This document shows positions 4,213 to 47,895 of a stretch of 64,000 nucleotides of DNA, piece by piece (position 1 is the stretch's first letter; every line of letters starts with the position of its first letter). The notes below the pieces were generated by a model that was not told where the DNA came from, searched no databases, and worked only from the letters and a program-made list of their open reading frames with translations. A program made the position numbers and the translations under genes. The DNA lies in the NCBI RefSeq assembly GCF_009711165.2, contig NZ_WMID02000025.1, positions 1-64,000 of the forward strand, read 5' to 3'. Source of the DNA: Flavobacterium sp. MC2016-06. GTDB lineage: Bacteria; Bacteroidota; Bacteroidia; Flavobacteriales; Flavobacteriaceae.

Positions 4213-6081
4213 ATGAAGAAGAAGATTGAAATATTAGCTCCAGCTAAAGATTTAATTGGTGGAATCGCTGCCATAAATAGTGGCGCCGATGCCGTTTATA
4301 TTGGTGCACCATTATATGGAGCACGTTCTAATGCTACAAACTCAATTGAAGATGTTGCAGCATTAGTAAAATATGCGCATTTATTTAACGCTCAGATTTT
4401 TGTAGTAATCAATACCATTTTATACGACAACGAATTAGAAACGTGTCGCGCAATGATTTGGGAATTATACAATATTGGTGTCGATGCCTTAATCATTCAA
4501 GACATGGCGATTATGGAAATGGACTTACCTCCTATCGTACTTCACGCCAGCACACAAGCCAATAATCGTGATGCCGATAAAATCAAATTCCTTAAAGATG
4601 CCGGAATCAAACGTGTCGTTTTAGCGCGCGAATTAAACTTGCATCAAATTAAAACAATCTACGATCACGCAGATGTTGAATTAGAATTTTTCGTTACAGG
4701 TGCATTATGTGTATCATTTAGCGGAAACTGTTATATGAGTGTCGCTAACGGAGAAAGAAGTGCAAACCGTGGTTCTTGTGCCCAAAACTGTCGTTTACCT
4801 TATAACTTAATAGACGGAAACGGAGAAACTTTAATCAAAAACAGTCACTTACTTTCTATTAAAGATTTTGATGTTTCAGATCAAATTCCAAATCTGGTTG
4901 AAGCAGGAATTGTTTCTTTTAAAATTGAAGGACGTCTAAAAGACATCGTTTATGTAAAAAACAACGTTTCTTACTTACGCCAAAAATTAGATACTTTCTT
5001 AGAAGGAAGTGATAAATACACCAAAGCTTCTTCTGGAAAATGTACTTATACTTTTGATTCTGCTCTCGATAAAAGTTTCAATCGCGGTTACACAGACTAT
5101 TTTGTAAACGAAAGACACAGTTCAATTGGTTCTTGGGAAAGTCCAAAATCAAAAGGACAATATATTGGTAAATTAATAAAAACCGTTGGAAACGCTTACG
5201 AAATTGAAAACGGCGAATTATTAAACAATGGTGACGGACTTTGTTTCATCAACGAAAATAATGAAGCAGAAGGAATTTACGTCAACAAAGCCGAAAATGG
5301 TTTGGCTTATCCTAACGTTTTAAAAGAAATCAAAGACGGTACTTTTATTTATAGAAATAACGATGCCGCTTTCATTAAAATTGTAGAAAGAGAAGACAGT
5401 GCGGTACGTAAAATCAGTACCACTTTATTATTGACCGAAAACGAAAATGGTTTCGAATTAATCGCCACAGACGAAGACGGAAACGTAAGTACTGTGAATT
5501 TAGTTCATCCAAAAGAACAAACTAAAAACAACGAATCTATCGCAGAAAACTTTAAAACCAATTTGGCAAAAACTGGTTTTACTCCTTATACTGCAGACGA
5601 AATTGATGTAGTATTTTCTCAAAATTGGTTCTTACCTATTTCAAAAATCAATGAAATGAGAAGAACAGTTTTCGAGCAATTATCAGAAATTCGTTTAGCA
5701 AATTACAAACGTGAAGAACACCAAATGGTAAAAACTTCGCATCCTTATCCTGAAACGAAATTAGATTTCATGTACAATGTTGCCAACAAAACGGCTCGTA
5801 AATTCTACGAACGTCACGGCGTTACCGAAATCGAAAAAGCATTCGAATTACAATGGGATCCAGGAAAATCTCGTGTAATGACAACCAAATATTGCATCAA
5901 ATACGAATTAAAAAAATGTCCGATACACCAAAAAGACATTGTTGGTGTAAAAGTAAAAGAACCATTAGTACTAAAACAAGGCGAATTAGAATACAAACTA
6001 AAATTCAACTGTAAACCTTGTGAAATGGAAATTTGGGAAAAAGATGCCGAATTTGAAATTGAAGAAGATCATTTTCATTAA
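4213..6081 (+). CDS. U32 family (collagenase-like) protein, RlhA/TrhP type
   Basis: The family is named after a collagenase-like peptidase, but characterised bacterial members RlhA (YdcP) and TrhP (YegQ) make 5-hydroxycytidine in 23S rRNA and 5-hydroxyuridine in tRNA from a prephenate-derived donor. The 622-residue length, with a long C-terminal half, is closer to RlhA than to TrhP. The U32 core includes VLHASTQANNRD near residues 109-120 and the four cysteines C166, C173, C189 and C193, a likely metal or Fe-S site. A second cysteine set sits at the C-terminus (KKCPIHQKD and NCKPCEM). No signal peptide is present, which fits a cytoplasmic RNA-modifying enzyme. Which RNA it acts on is inference. 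Confidence 0.8.
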   Translation: MKKKIEILAPAKDLIGGIAAINSGADAVYIGAPLYGARSNATNSIEDVAALVKYAHLFNAQIFVVINTILYDNELETCRAMIWELYNIGVDALIIQDMAIMEMDLPPIVLHASTQANNRDADKIKFLKDAGIKRVVLARELNLHQIKTIYDHADVELEFFVTGALCVSFSGNCYMSVANGERSANRGSCAQNCRLPYNLIDGNGETLIKNSHLLSIKDFDVSDQIPNLVEAGIVSFKIEGRLKDIVYVKNNVSYLRQKLDTFLEGSDKYTKASSGKCTYTFDSALDKSFNRGYTDYFVNERHSSIGSWESPKSKGQYIGKLIKTVGNAYEIENGELLNNGDGLCFINENNEAEGIYVNKAENGLAYPNVLKEIKDGTFIYRNNDAAFIKIVEREDSAVRKISTTLLLTENENGFELIATDEDGNVSTVNLVHPKEQTKNNESIAENFKTNLAKTGFTPYTADEIDVVFSQNWFLPISKINEMRRTVFEQLSEIRLANYKREEHQMVKTSHPYPETKLDFMYNVANKTARKFYERHGVTEIEKAFELQWDPGKSRVMTTKYCIKYELKKCPIHQKDIVGVKVKEPLVLKQGELEYKLKFNCKPCEMEIWEKDAEFEIEEDHFH

Positions 6082-6245: not shown

Positions 6246-6333
6246 GGGCGTGACCACAAGGGTCGGGCTATCCGTTACAAGTCCTCGCACTTCCTTCGTC
6301 AGGCTGTGGGCTTTCCACTTCTATCCCTCACGC
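6246..6333 (-). ncRNA. Structured intergenic element, copy B (candidate ncRNA)
   Basis: Read on the minus strand from 6333 to 6246, it starts GCGTGAGGGATAGAAGTGG and ends GGTCACGCCC. The outer GCGTGA and TCACGC can pair as a closing stem. Inside are the blocks GAGGGATAGAAGTGGAAA and AACGGATAGCCCGACCC, also found in the copy at 41520-41608. The two loops between and after these blocks differ in sequence between copies but can still fold. The transcribed strand is unknown, so strand here follows the conserved-block orientation. It lies between palindrome copies 1 and 2. A comparison with the Flavo-1 motif in Rfam is the obvious identity test. Confidence 0.55.
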
Positions 6334-6385
6334 AAATCGTAAAATGAGAACTATTTCGTTTATAATTACACTTGCATTCCACAAT

Positions 6386-6488
6386 TTTGTCATTTCGAGG
6401 AACGAGAAATCGCACTAGAATCTCTGTTGTAAAATCCTCAATCTTTGTCGAATCTCGTGTGCGATTTCTCGTTCCTCGAAATGACAAA
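6386..6488. repeat. TGTCATTTCGAG-type palindrome, copy 2
   Basis: Long inverted arms begin TTTGTCATTTCGAGGAACG and end with the exact complement. The arms extend about 30 bp into a GCGATTTCTCG stem, with a 40-bp centre. Short apparent ORFs crossing this region (for example 6299-6487) arise from the palindrome and are not genes. The rest of the 6082-6605 gap holds the terminator, copy 1, the structured element and a degenerate CGCAGATTT-family remnant at about 6519-6562. Confidence 0.9.
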
Positions 6489-6605
6489 CTATATGGTTAC
6501 TGAACATAAAAATTAATTTCACGATAAATTAAATCTGCCAAATCTCCAAAATCAGCGTGGGAATAAATTCCATTTTTTTATCTTTACTCACCAAACTAAA
6601 TTTAA

Positions 6606-39866: not shown

Positions 39867-41378
39867 ATGCCCCTATCAATAATCAATTCGTTTGCTTCAT
39901 GGGTCCTTAAACAAAGGATACACCAAATAGAACTCTTTCTAAAATATCCTAATGAAGTACAAGAAGAATTACTGCACAATTTATTGACGGCCTCTGAAAA
40001 TACGGTTATAGGCAGACAATATGAATTTTCGACTATAAACTCTTATCAAACTTTTACCGAAAGAGTGCCTATTGCAACTTACGAAGAGTTACAGCCATTG
40101 ATCGAACGCACGCGTCAAGGCGAACAAAACGTTTTTTGGGAAACTCCTATAAAATGGTTTGCTAAATCGAGCGGTACAACTAATGCCAAAAGTAAATTTA
40201 TCCCCGTAAGTAGTGAGGCTCTAGAAGACTGCCACTATAAAGGAAGTAAAGATTTGCTTTGTTTGTATTTGAACAACAATGAAGATTCTGAATTGTTTTT
40301 GGGGAAAAGTCTTCGCTTAGGTGGAAGTTCTCAGATTTATGAAAACAACAATACTTTTTTTGGAGATTTATCGGCTATATTAATTGAAAACATGCCTATT
40401 TGGGCTGAATTCAGCAGTACACCAAGCAGTAAAACATCGCTGATGAGCGAATGGGAAACTAAAATGGCGGCGATTATTAATGAAACGAAAAATGAAAATG
40501 TAACTAGTTTTGCAGGAGTTCCTTCTTGGATGCTGGTTTTAATGAATAAGGTTTTAGAAAATACGGGCAAAGGAAACCTTTTAGAAATCTGGCCGAACCT
40601 TGAAGTTTATTTTCATGGTGGCGTAAGTTTTTCGCCTTATAAAGAACAGTACAAGAAAATACTGCCTAGTAAAGATTTCAAATACTACGAAATATACAAT
40701 GCTTCTGAAGGCTTTTTTGCGATTCAGGATTTAAATAATTCGAGTGATTTATTGTTAATGCTGGATTATGGCATTTTTTACGAATTTATCTCTATGGATA
40801 CTTTTGGCAGTCCAAATCAGAAAGTGATTCGTCTTGCTGATGTTGAATTGAATAAAAACTATGCGATTGTTATTACCACAAATTCTGGTTTATGGAGATA
40901 TATGATTGGTGATACGGTTCGTTTTACGTCTTTAAATCCGTATAGAATTAGAGTTACCGGAAGAACCAAACATCATATCAATGTATTTGGAGAAGAATTA
41001 ATGGTAGAAAACACCGATCAAGCTATTGCAAAAGCCTGTCAGCTTACAGAAACTGAAGTGATTGATTATACGGTTGCTCCGATCTTTATGCAGGACAAAG
41101 AAAAAGGCGCTCACGAATGGATGATTGAGTTTAAGAAAAAACCAGCTGATGTTGGTCTTTTCCAGAAAGTTTTGGATGAAACTTTACAGACTTTAAATTC
41201 TGATTACGAAGCTAAACGTTACAACAATATGACTTTGAATCCGCTTGTAATTAATATCGCACGCGAAAACTTATTTTACGATTGGCTTAAAGAAAGAGAT
41301 AAACTGGGCGGACAACATAAGATTCCGAGACTTTCTAATCAGAGAGATTATTTGGAGCAGTTGAAAGGAATGTCTTAA
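39867..41378 (+). CDS. GH3 auxin-responsive-promoter family protein (acyl-adenylate type)
   Basis: The 503-residue protein is full length for the GH3 family. It has the ATP-binding KSSGTTNAKSKFIPVS at about residues 98-113, YNASEGFF near 276, and a C-terminal domain with VTGRTKHHINVFGEELM (about 370-386), where adenylating enzymes place the catalytic loop. Plant GH3s conjugate amino acids to jasmonate or auxin, and bacterial members are common in Bacteroidota but lack tested substrates. The first start ATG follows an AATCTAAA repeat. A terminator follows at 41394. Base composition matches its neighbours, so recent acquisition is not indicated. Confidence 0.88.
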   Translation: MPLSIINSFASWVLKQRIHQIELFLKYPNEVQEELLHNLLTASENTVIGRQYEFSTINSYQTFTERVPIATYEELQPLIERTRQGEQNVFWETPIKWFAKSSGTTNAKSKFIPVSSEALEDCHYKGSKDLLCLYLNNNEDSELFLGKSLRLGGSSQIYENNNTFFGDLSAILIENMPIWAEFSSTPSSKTSLMSEWETKMAAIINETKNENVTSFAGVPSWMLVLMNKVLENTGKGNLLEIWPNLEVYFHGGVSFSPYKEQYKKILPSKDFKYYEIYNASEGFFAIQDLNNSSDLLLMLDYGIFYEFISMDTFGSPNQKVIRLADVELNKNYAIVITTNSGLWRYMIGDTVRFTSLNPYRIRVTGRTKHHINVFGEELMVENTDQAIAKACQLTETEVIDYTVAPIFMQDKEKGAHEWMIEFKKKPADVGLFQKVLDETLQTLNSDYEAKRYNNMTLNPLVINIARENLFYDWLKERDKLGGQHKIPRLSNQRDYLEQLKGMS

Positions 41379-41423: not shown

Positions 41424-41519
41424 ATGCTTTTTTGTCAATTTCGACGAAAGGAGAAATTGATCCTATTTTATTTTTTTAGAGTTACTTGTGTAATTTTCAA
41501 ACGCTAATTCCACTAAGTC

Positions 41520-41608
41520 GCATGAGGGATAGAAGTGGAAATCCTTTTTGTTTTTTCTTTAAAAACAAAAAGATTGAAACGGATAGCCCGACCCGGAGGG
41601 ACATGCCC
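41520..41608 (+). ncRNA. Structured intergenic element, copy A (candidate ncRNA)
   Basis: It starts GCATGAGGGATAGAAGTGG and ends GGGACATGCCC. GCATG (41520-41524) and CATGC (41602-41606) form the closing stem. GCGTG/CACGC replaces it in the copy at 6246-6333, a compensatory A-T to G-C change. Inside, GAGGGATAGAAGTGGAAA and AACGGATAGCCCGACCC are shared. The loop between them forms a 12-bp perfect hairpin here (CTTTTTGTTTTT / AAAAACAAAAAG). The last hairpin is CCC-GGA-GGG, GACC-CTTGT-GGTC in copy B. It lies between the GH3 terminator and the serB terminator, so it needs its own promoter to be made as RNA; none was clearly found. Confidence 0.6.
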
Positions 41609-41645: not shown

Positions 41646-41665
41646 CTTAATGTTTTATTTTGACT

Positions 41666-41751
41666 GTCTTTGCGAGGAACGAAGCAATCACACATGCTAA
41701 ATCATTCTTGTGTCTTATCGTTAGCGTGATTGCTTCGTTCCTCGAAATGAC
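41666..41751. repeat. TGTC-GAGGAACG-type palindrome, copy 4
   Basis: Arms GTCTTTGCGAGGAACGAAGC and complement (ending ATTGCTTCGTTCCTCGAAATGAC) enclose a 30-bp centre. It is in the 3' UTR of serB. The outer words relate it to copies 1 to 3. The rest of the 41379-41760 gap holds the GH3 terminator, copy A of the structured element, and the serB terminator. Confidence 0.9.
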
Positions 41752-41760
41752 AAACTAGAT

Positions 41761-42990
41761 TTACATCATATCGATATATCTGTCGTGATATCCTAAAAGA
41801 TACAAAACACCATCTAAGCCTAAACTAGAAATAGAGGTTGCAGCGTTTTCTTTTACTTTTGGTTTTGCGTGAAAAGCGATTCCTAAACCGGCTAAATTCA
41901 GCATTGGTAAATCGTTTGCTCCATCTCCAACAGCAATGGTTTGATTGATGTGAATGCCTTCTTTTTCGGCAATAGCTTTTAATAATTCTGCTTTCTTTTG
42001 TCCGTCAACAATTTCACCTAAATATTTACCTGTCAATTTACCGTCTTTTATTTCTAATTGATTGGCATGAACGTAATCGATTCCTAGTTCTTTCTGCAGA
42101 TATTCTCCAAAATAAGTAAAACCTCCAGATAAGATTGCGGTTTTATATCCGTAATATTTTAAAGCTTTCATCAAACGACGAGCGCCTTTTGTTATTGGTA
42201 AATTTATAGCAACATTTTGCAGAACATCTTCGCTTAAGCCTTCTAACAACGCCATACGCTGTTTAAAACTTTCATTAAAATCAATTTCGCCATTCATTGC
42301 AGATTCTGTAATGGCTCTTACTTGTGCTCCTACGCCATTTAATTCTGCCAATTCGTCAATTACCTCGGTTTGGATTAAAGTCGAATCCATATCAAAACAA
42401 ACTAAACGTCTGTTTCTTCTATAAATATTATCTTCCTGGAAAGAAATATCTACGTTTAATGTTCTTGAAATTTCCATAAAACTTGCCGTCATGACAATTT
42501 TATTTACGATTTCGCCAGTTACTGATAATTGTATACAAGAACGCGGATATTCTTCTTTTTCTACTATTGAAGTTCTTCCTGTTAATCTTATAATAGAGTC
42601 GATATTTAAATTTTGATCGGACATTATTTTAGTCACTGCTGCCAATTGTGAAGCTGCCAGCTGTTCGCCTAAAATGTTGATAATGTAACGTTGTTTTGAT
42701 TGTGATTTTACCCACTTTTCGTAATCGTCGATAGAAATTGGCGTAAATTTTACTTTAATTTCTAATTCGTATGCTTTAAACAATAAATCTTTTAAAACGG
42801 GTCCTGAAGTAGAACCGGCTTTTATTTCAAACAAAATCCCTAAAGATAATGTATCATGAATATCTGCTTGGCCTATATCTAAAATAACAGCATCATAAGC
42901 AGCCAAAACTGATGTTAGACCTGCTGTAACTCCTATTTTATCGTGTCCTGAAACTTTTAATAAAATAATTTCTTTATCTTCTGTTGTCAT
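41761..42990 (-). CDS. serB: Phosphoserine phosphatase with N-terminal ACT domains
   Basis: SerB hydrolyses phosphoserine, the last step of serine synthesis. The ATG at 42990 (409 residues) is chosen; the upstream frame adds an unrelated tail. Two ACT-like domains span about residues 8-90 and 103-185, and the HAD phosphatase follows. HAD motif I is DMDSTL (D200 and D202), motif II is SGGF, and motif III is DGANDLPML. The ACT domains probably sense serine. It is alone on the minus strand with a terminator. Confidence 0.94.
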   Translation of the reverse strand: MTTEDKEIILLKVSGHDKIGVTAGLTSVLAAYDAVILDIGQADIHDTLSLGILFEIKAGSTSGPVLKDLLFKAYELEIKVKFTPISIDDYEKWVKSQSKQRYIINILGEQLAASQLAAVTKIMSDQNLNIDSIIRLTGRTSIVEKEEYPRSCIQLSVTGEIVNKIVMTASFMEISRTLNVDISFQEDNIYRRNRRLVCFDMDSTLIQTEVIDELAELNGVGAQVRAITESAMNGEIDFNESFKQRMALLEGLSEDVLQNVAINLPITKGARRLMKALKYYGYKTAILSGGFTYFGEYLQKELGIDYVHANQLEIKDGKLTGKYLGEIVDGQKKAELLKAIAEKEGIHINQTIAVGDGANDLPMLNLAGLGIAFHAKPKVKENAATSISSLGLDGVLYLLGYHDRYIDMM

Positions 42991-43171
42991 TTTATCTGAA
43001 TTGATTTTGAAAGCGACAAAAATCGACAATCTATTGTTTATAAAAAAGAATATCCTTTGTTTTTTTAAACACAAAAAGCACTATTTAATGTGCTTTTTGG
43101 AATTAATTTAACATTAATCTTAGTGTATTAAAATAATATAACTTTAGATCGTTATAAATTAAAACTGTGAT

Positions 43172-46662: not shown

Positions 46663-47895
46663 TTAAGAAGCAATTTCCATTCGCTTCAATAAATTTTTAT
46701 TTAAGGTATGTTCTGCATAATCTCTATCGATTGTCAGAACTTTATCGTCAGAACTTGGTAGTTCGTACATCGCATCTGTTAAGATTGCTTCGCATAACGA
46801 ACGTAGTCCACGAGCTCCTAATTTGTATTCTAATGCTTTATCTACAATAAAGTCTAATGCTTCGTCTGTAATTGTAAACTCAACCTCATCCATTAAAAAT
46901 AATTTCTGATATTGTTTTACTAAAGCATTTTTAGGCTGTGTCAAAATTGCACGCAAAGTTTCTCTATCAAGAGGATCCATGTGTGTAAGAACTGGCAGAC
47001 GGCCAATAATTTCAGGAATCAATCCGAAGTCTTTAATATCTTTCGGGATGATGTATTGCAATAAATTGTCTTTATCTATATTATCTACATTTTTAGAAGT
47101 AGAGTATCCAACTGCCTGACGGTTTAAACGTTTAGAAATAATACGTTCTACTCCATCAAAAGCACCGCCGGCAATAAACAAGATATTTTGTGTATTTACC
47201 TCAACAAATTTCTGGTCTGGATGTTTACGTCCTCCTTTTGGTGGCACGTTTACAACTGTTCCTTCTAATAATTTTAATAATGCCTGCTGTACACCTTCTC
47301 CAGAAACGTCACGTGTTATTGATGGATTATCGCTCTTACGGGCAATTTTATCAATTTCGTCAATAAATACGATTCCTCTTTCGGCTTTAGACACATCATA
47401 ATCGGCTGCTTGAAGCAAACGTGTCAAAATACTTTCTACATCTTCTCCAACATAACCAGCTTCTGTTAATACAGTTGCATCAACAATTGCTAAAGGAACG
47501 TCTAACATTTTTGCAATAGTTTTTGCCACCAATGTTTTTCCAGTTCCGGTTTGACCAACCATAATGATGTTACTTTTTTCGATCTCTACTTCATCGTCTA
47601 ACTGCTGTTGCATTAAACGTTTGTAGTGATTGTAAACTGCAACCGACATTACTTTTTTGGTTTGGTCTTGACCAATTACATATTGATCTAAAAAAGCCCT
47701 AATTTCTTTTGGTTTCTTTAAAATTAAGTCACCTACTAATTTTGCGCTTCCGCTTGATTTTAATTCTTCTAATACAATTCCGTGCGCCTGCTCGATACAC
47801 TTATCACAGATATGTGCATTGATGCCCGCAATTAATAAATTAGTTTCTGGCTTTTTTCTTCCACAAAACGAACATTCTAATACTACTTTCGCCAT
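46663..47895 (-). CDS. clpX: ATP-dependent Clp protease ATP-binding subunit ClpX
   Basis: ClpX unfolds proteins and feeds them to ClpP. The 410-residue protein has the zinc-binding domain with C8, C11, C30 and C33, Walker A GQTGTGKT at 114-121, and Walker [11 protein letters not shown] near 179-188. A sensor 2 region LGARGLRS is near 361-368. It is the last gene of the tig-clpP-clpX order. The leader before its ATG contains TTGAAAC-type repeats. Confidence 0.97.

Follow-up and report, generated by a model that had tools for sequence, protein, structure and literature searches.

Flavo-1, a dispersed chromosomal hairpin repeat of Bacteroidota that may act as one folded strand

Results

Two type II Flavo-1 copies in the window

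The window, namely the whole stretch of 64,000 nucleotides analysed here, contains two copies of a structured non-coding element, copy A on the plus strand between a GH3-family gene and a convergent serB-like gene, and copy B on the minus strand beside a peptidase U32 gene. Both were scored with Rfam and with R1, a type II covariance model of 42 sequences in which the two window copies are included. The features are as follows.

4213..6081, plus strand: peptidase U32 gene, its 3′ end facing copy B (Pfam PF01136)
6246..6334, minus strand: copy B, type II, with an apical domain of the GCCC...GAGGAC kind (Rfam and R1)
6333-6329 and 6252-6248, minus strand: outer stem of copy B, GCGTG and CACGC
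6253..6263, minus strand: mini-hairpin ACC-CTTGT-GGT of copy B
39867..41378, plus strand: GH3-family gene upstream of copy A (Pfam PF03321)
41508..41514, plus strand: TTCCACT upstream of copy A, complementary to the core AGTGGAA, a possible alternative fold
41519..41608, plus strand: copy A, type II Flavo-1 element, three-way junction (Rfam and R1)
41520..41524, plus strand: 5′ side of the outer stem P0 of copy A, GCATG
41526..41543, plus strand: core 5′ arm of copy A, short helices parted by GAA and GGA purine internal loops
41544..41571, plus strand: apical hairpin of copy A, replaceable as a block
41572..41589, plus strand: core 3′ arm of copy A
41592..41600, plus strand: mini-hairpin CCC-GGA-GGG in the junction of copy A
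41602..41606, plus strand: 3′ side of the outer stem P0 of copy A, CATGC
41761..43074, minus strand: ACT + HAD phosphatase gene (serB-like), convergent with copy A (Pfam PF13740, PF12710)

The preliminary description had reported these two copies with the outer stems GCATG/CATGC and GCGTG/CACGC, and both points were borne out, as GAGGGATAGAAGTGGAAA occurs exactly at 41524-41541 (plus strand) and 6312-6329 (minus strand) and both stems were found as described. At up to 3 mismatches GAGGGATAGAAGTGGAAA has 3 matches against 0.02 expected, the third of which (34017, 3 mismatches) is inside a coding ORF with no Flavo-1 match there. Folded alone, copy A adopts the described fold, its mini-hairpin included, at −24.2 kcal/mol (z −2.19), compared with −19.5 kcal/mol (z −0.77) for the opposite strand, and GAA opposite GGA, and GGA opposite GAA, are placed between short helices, the arrangement of helices and purine internal loops that characterizes the Flavo-1 core. 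Copy B folds much like copy A, yet not beyond its shuffles (z −0.29), and therefore its structural support is comparative. The mini-hairpin GACC/GGTC described for copy B has to be shortened, because base 6252 is shared with the outer stem and only ACC/GGT remains if the outer stem forms.

The suggested identity with the Rfam motif Flavo-1 (RF01705) is confirmed in the Rfam search for copy A, which scores 70.4 bits at 41512-41597 against a gathering cut-off of 42, and falls short for copy B with 35.5 bits; by R1, in whose training set both were included, copy A reaches 87.7 bits at 41519-41608 and copy B 99.8 bits. In place of the Rfam 5′ junction, which has a conserved UAGCC and no outer three-way junction, both window copies carry GCRTG-AGGG and the mini-hairpin.

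Pairing of TTCCACT with AGTGGAA (41508-41541) would compete with the main fold of copy A. TTCCACT is largely kept in orthologues of the serB-like locus, and the pairing is kept by wobble variants in some of these and broken in others. In addition, long inverted repeats of the 'TCGAGGAACGA...' kind adjoin both copies (41648-41768 and 6385-6491), where the Rfam miRNA matches are below cut-off and look spurious.

Two forms of Flavo-1 and their host range

Flavo-1 occurs in two forms, type I with the CTAGCC 5′ junction of the Rfam model, and type II, to which both window copies belong, with an outer stem and a mini-hairpin that make up a three-way junction outside that model. The preliminary count of two copies was incomplete, as the genome of the window has about 70-80 matches: 68 Rfam Flavo-1 matches at E ≤ 0.001, of which 58 are over the cut-off, and 45 R1 matches at E ≤ 0.01. 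Eleven R1 matches at E ≤ 1e-5 (five of 76-96 bits and six of 37-46 bits) are not in the Rfam list, a gap to which the pre-filter may contribute, since the Rfam search of this genome scored 150 of 1633 candidates.

Under stricter filters an Rfam match was found in 140 of 150 genomes of the genus and no Flavo-1 match in the other 10, four of which are single-contig; the copy number among congeners runs from 0 to 101 (a smaller sample, with the best 107 candidates per genome scored). At E ≤ 1e-4, R1 has a match in 48 of the 296 Bacteroidota genomes searched, which belong to 25 of 139 genera; 18 of the 48 genomes are from the same genus, 6 others from the family, 4 from the order, 14 from the class and 6 from other classes. 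An exact 18-base scan of named genomes found at least 117 loci, and the 3′ block is present as well in 106 of those listed; the 11 listed loci lacking it comprise chance matches in Priestia, Salirhabdus, Syntrophaceticus and other non-Bacteroidota, and also a few true copies that the pattern missed. Most of the titles listed, for 80 of the at least 117 loci, name Flavobacterium; Mariniflexile, Niabella, Psychroflexus, Breznakibacter, Chitinophagales and Bacteroidales are also represented.

Some copies of the host genome look rearranged. A CCCGATAGCTATCGGG-like palindrome is found inside 8 of the 68 copies, as if inserted into or replacing parts of a hairpin, in loops at L012, L027, L081, L084 and L091 and in arms or the junction at L086, L088 and L093; the window has none at up to 2 mismatches. 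The type II copies L077 and L078 have 210 bp in common at 96% identity, the match ending just past CACGCCCAAAAT, and a further repeat chain lies upstream of it. In one copy (L063) the apical loop is reversed, TAAAGA for TCTTTA, as if the tip had been flipped.

The family itself is already known, and type II, the link to rRNA operons and the block replacement described below appear to be new: type II, the rRNA link and tip replacement are not described in the accessible parts of the literature naming Flavo-1, subscription journals and preprints excluded, and within the same limits none of five sequence strings of the element was found in print.

Outer-stem covariation and the folding strand

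In a set of 118 type II copies, 26 have GCATG on the 5′ side, and the 3′ side is CATGC in 22 of these and CACGC in none (25 of the 26 copies represent one locus, that of the GH3 and serB-like genes); GCGTG goes with CACGC in 64 of 71 and with CATGC in 2 of 71, and among copies with other 5-mers the exact complement is present in 8 of 21 against 0.52 expected. When 71 distinct copies are aligned to R1, 93.5% of the cells pair, two-sided changes occur at 18 of 21 pairs, and the covariation score is 0.330 compared with 0.113 in shuffles and at most 0.064 with partners slid, in an alignment that is fitted to the model and leans towards the R1 structure; 47 copies have GC as the innermost pair of the outer stem, 22 have UA and 2 have AU. 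Across the phylum, the joint changes in the outer stem are evidence for a constrained fold. The covariance-model search that had been proposed at the outset thus returned many further copies with a strongly covarying outer stem, and the description of a structured non-coding element with covarying stems holds.

Mispairs were used to ask which strand folds, because folding of both strands would make G-T about as frequent as A-C. The observed ratio of G-T to A-C is 35 to 5, summed over three sets that overlap a little, namely type II (20:3, a set picked by the covariance model, which slightly favours G-U over A-C), the apical stems of the host genome (13:2) and the core (2:0); two further apical sets give 1:0 and 2:1. 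The raw A-C plus C-A count of type II was 72, of which 69 fall at two pairs whose register differs between apical classes and were set aside, and a pattern-based mispair count was not relied on, as its pattern was indifferent to A/G and to C/T at two partner positions. Thus one strand of Flavo-1 folds.

G-U pairs are scarce. They make up 20 of 1388 standard pairs in type II, 2 of 601 in the core (103 of 130 candidates parsed, mostly but not only type I, one G-C pair forced by the pattern being left out), and 13 of 457, 1 of 405 and 2 of 156 in three apical sets, the first of which is the apical stems of the host genome. The share is thus 0.2-2.8% in the Flavo-1 sets compared with 6.6% (16 of 243) in 12 tRNAs of the same DNA, where 12 of 13 were parsed and the best-pairing layout was chosen with G-U allowed. 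Such scarcity is odd for an RNA, although it could also result from the shortness of helices that lie between internal loops.

Tip replacement as a block

The clearest comparison is between L435 of genome G194 and L440 of genome G221, whose 60-nt flanks are 95% and 97% identical and whose core arms are 97% identical, and whose tips, 19 and 11 nt within a common stem base, are wholly different. Each tip is found elsewhere in the other genome, at one locus in one case and at four in the other, and among 15 loci per genome neither tip was seen a second time in the genome that carries it. The two genomes had also been considered as a collinear pair, which they are not. Copy A and its counterpart in genome G008 differ likewise, with a tip identity of 0.54 and arm identities of 1.00 and 0.94 (19 of 21 pairs parsed, arms located by pattern, which raises their identity), and the GH3/serB-like group has at least five unrelated tips. 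Of eight pairs in which both 60-nt flanks are at least 75% identical, six, mostly rRNA-upstream paralogues, keep the tip and two do not, the whole element being different in one of the latter. Over 65 non-independent pairs with both flanks in common, rRNA-upstream paralogues of one genome included, the mean identity is 0.85 for the arms (again raised by pattern location), 0.75 for the tip, and 0.66 and 0.70 for the flanks.

Since tips can be replaced as a block, which alters both sides of a stem at once, a two-sided change alone is no proof of stepwise selection on an RNA. Therefore, the stem difference between copies A and B, first taken as the mark of selection on pairing, was read too strongly in that form, and what stands is the constrained fold that the phylum-wide outer-stem covariation supports.

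Genomic placement, orientation and persistence

Orientation to the neighbouring genes is random. At the 57 of 68 host-genome loci where both neighbours were called (simple ORF calls), the arrangements are ++20, --13, -+12 and +-12, the element agrees or disagrees with either neighbour 32 to 25, and its orientation to the downstream neighbour is 18 versus 17 over 39 type II groups, one of which, a merged group of 10, is mixed in orientation and may join two places. Constant gene orientation, as expected of a cis-regulatory UTR, was thus found neither in the host genome nor in the type II groups. An apparent excess of type II 3′ ends facing gene 3′ ends (69 versus 32) disappeared, to 18 versus 17, once loci were merged by common neighbour. 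No replication-strand bias is seen in the single-contig genomes G010 (59 copies) and G063 (33 copies).

In 102 type I copies, neither a promoter nor a terminator was detected at a fixed position, although they may have a weak or displaced promoter. A TTCTTWTGAAAAC-like box lies upstream of part of both types, with no aligned partner motif farther up; it is present within 40 nt in 35 of 102 and 39 of 105 copies of the two types compared with 1-12 in farther windows, and this enrichment in both types suggests a discrete unit. A-tracts and terminator-like hairpins directly adjoin many of the type II copies.

Copies persist at common loci. In the GH3/serB-like interval, both gene ends could be placed in 25 of the 30 loci examined, and 19 of these, the window included, have the 5′ block on the same strand; three loci have an opposite-strand pattern match, two of them also among the counted loci. 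Downstream of the U32 gene the block is on the strand of copy B at 15 of 29 other loci, one of which (L169) is a divergent variant. Of the best-scoring copies of other genomes, 18 of 54 have more than 150 bp of sequence similar to a Flavo-1 locus of the host genome, and 21 of the 30 best copies of G008 have a flank in common with a host-genome copy, a few of these matches being short. Seven neighbour groups (25, 18, 10, 8, 5, 4 and 4) take in 74 of the 106 named type II loci, and the neighbours are unrelated in distant taxa (10 proteins examined).

Links to mobile DNA or tRNA genes were largely absent: a tRNA gene is present in only 2 of 60 loci, copy A has no blastn match in plasmid and phage collections, viral contigs yielded no match to one degenerate pattern for the type I core with its shorter arms, empty insertion sites were not seen, and no Flavo-1 5′ block lies within about 1.5 kb on either side of the 6 Y1_Tnp matches of the host genome. 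Among the latter are matches at G000:C30:4052-4396 and 46724-47069; two of the three have internal stop codons, and these matches are not beside Flavo-1.

A divergent copy upstream of rRNA operons

Five host-genome copies (L002, L012, L015, L020 and L067), all near contig ends, align over about 350-650 bp including flank. With this flank as query, many similar stretches were found in six single-contig genomes and 14 were taken as loci; the query also contained its own Flavo-1, and the matches fall in its operon-side part. Thirteen of the 14 (L375-L387, in other Flavobacterium genomes) contain a 16S gene, and 12 of these 13 have a type I Flavo-1 that passes the cut-off and lies 661-802 nt upstream of 16S, divergent in every case, although the 12 loci are not independent if rRNA operons are homogenized, as they may be. 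The exception, L384, has no Flavo-1 over the cut-off and a weak R1 match of 13.9 bits, and at L374 Flavo-1 is present with no 16S in the stretch examined. Between the element and 16S, the two sequences inspected have what we take to be three tandem TANNTTTG-like promoters.

Discussion

Based on these findings, we tentatively propose, with confidence somewhat below even, that Flavo-1 is a REP-like dispersed element that acts as folded single-stranded DNA, is served by a putative enzyme and exchanges its tips between copies. Namely, Flavo-1 would be a dispersed chromosomal hairpin repeat working as one folded strand, and that strand would most likely be DNA; a candidate trans-acting single-strand enzyme, either a nuclease, a transposase or a recombinase, may recognize the core and the junction; and the variable tip, presumably not contacted, could be swapped between copies by template switching or conversion, an exchange that may help to keep old copies intact. 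Such a REP-like single-stranded DNA would explain the dispersal, the copy-number swings, the indifference to transcription, the block replacement and the scarce G-U pairs. The further-reaching claim that Flavo-1 is a phylum-wide class of DNA hairpins and not an RNA family, which works as one folded strand and evolves by cassette swapping, so that its changes mimic covariation with hardly any G-U, is possible, though less likely than not. By itself the REP-like reading leaves the missing replication bias unexplained, as IS200/IS605-type movement predicts a lagging-strand bias. The searches for a Y1_Tnp gene beside a host-genome copy, for an empty site and for matches in plasmid, phage and viral sequences, all without a find, count against it as well, as do the tips kept in six of the eight pairs and the lack of a second copy of either L435/L440 tip among the 15 loci of its own genome. 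The arms are also better conserved than the flanks, as expected of a selected gene, and the scarcity of G-U may have its cause in the very short helices.

Only slightly less likely is that the copies are paralogous small RNAs or protein-binding RNAs, each copy being an RNA gene that acts in trans and is bound by a protein at its core and junction, in which case their genomic orientation would not matter. The excess of G-T over A-C on the folding strand in all five sets, 35 to 5 in the sum, also fits an RNA, as do the retention of the strand at common loci, the conservation of the core beyond the flanks, and the better folding of copy A on the element strand than on the opposite one; multicopy sRNA families also exist in Bacteroidota, as reported in the accessible text on FopS (PMC11697453), and the Weinberg 2010 table rates Flavo-1 as probably RNA and not cis-regulatory (PMC2864571). 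However, in the accessible account of a published transcriptome, which gives Flavo-1 no known function, many matches are outside transcribed regions and sense and antisense occur without distinction (PMC9723704), and neither the lack of a conserved promoter or terminator nor a copy number of 0-101 within one genus is what such RNA genes would lead one to expect. The small or protein-binding RNA that the preliminary description had considered is therefore not established by these data, given in addition the random gene orientation, and its structured character is what stands. The same transcriptome, as far as its accessible text goes, has several 5′ transcribed regions that coincide with Flavo-1 (PMC9723704), and copy A lies 3′ of the GH3 gene beside a terminator-like hairpin, as a cis-regulatory RNA in the UTRs of neighbouring genes might; yet the orientation is random and the neighbours in distant taxa are unrelated, which largely refutes this role and makes it very improbable.

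Improbable too, if slightly less so, is a chromosome-level insulator or protein-loading site of which the rRNA-upstream copies are the functional core and all others are dispersed. The regular divergent placement at 12 of 13 16S loci in six single-contig genomes and the many type II copies that abut A-tracts and terminator-like hairpins argue for it, whereas the flanks of the operons may have been homogenized together, one 16S locus (L384) is without a copy, and some congeners are without any Flavo-1 match. We therefore keep, tentatively, to the folded single-stranded DNA element. Since 2010 Flavo-1 has figured as a probable RNA with no function assigned, and type II, the place upstream of rRNA operons and the tip replacement make it testable. 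If the exchange of tips between copies is true, the covariation that usually serves to prove a functional RNA can arise by DNA-level copying between repeats, and the scarcity of G-U may help to tell the one from the other.

Compared with known systems, Flavo-1 resembles the REP elements and their RAYT partners in being a dispersed intergenic hairpin repeat of many copies, in both orientations and chromosomal. However, REP elements are 20-40 bp long and tagged by GTAG or CGTC, according to the accessible text of PMC3733652, whereas Flavo-1 measures about 90-120 bp, no such tag stands out in the flanks of 102 profiled type I copies, and no Y1_Tnp gene of the host genome adjoins a Flavo-1 copy. 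The FopS sRNAs of Bacteroides are likewise a multicopy non-coding family of Bacteroidota, with 14 members that are mostly intergenic; their described single-stranded 5′ seed, Rho-independent terminator and canonical promoters (PMC11697453, accessible text) have no counterpart found for Flavo-1. With the Rfam Flavo-1 RNA (RF01705), the core fold and sequence are the same, and copy A is over the cut-off, whereas type II differs by its outer stem, its mini-hairpin, a 5′ junction without CTAGCC and a wider host range in the samples used here. Although no Y1 transposase was found beside the copies (6 matches in the host genome), as would be the case for IS200/IS605, a further likeness is to the ends of these elements and to the attC sites of integrons, which work as a single folded strand of DNA whose stems hold mismatches and whose tip varies, and it is in these three respects that Flavo-1, as proposed here, can be compared with them.
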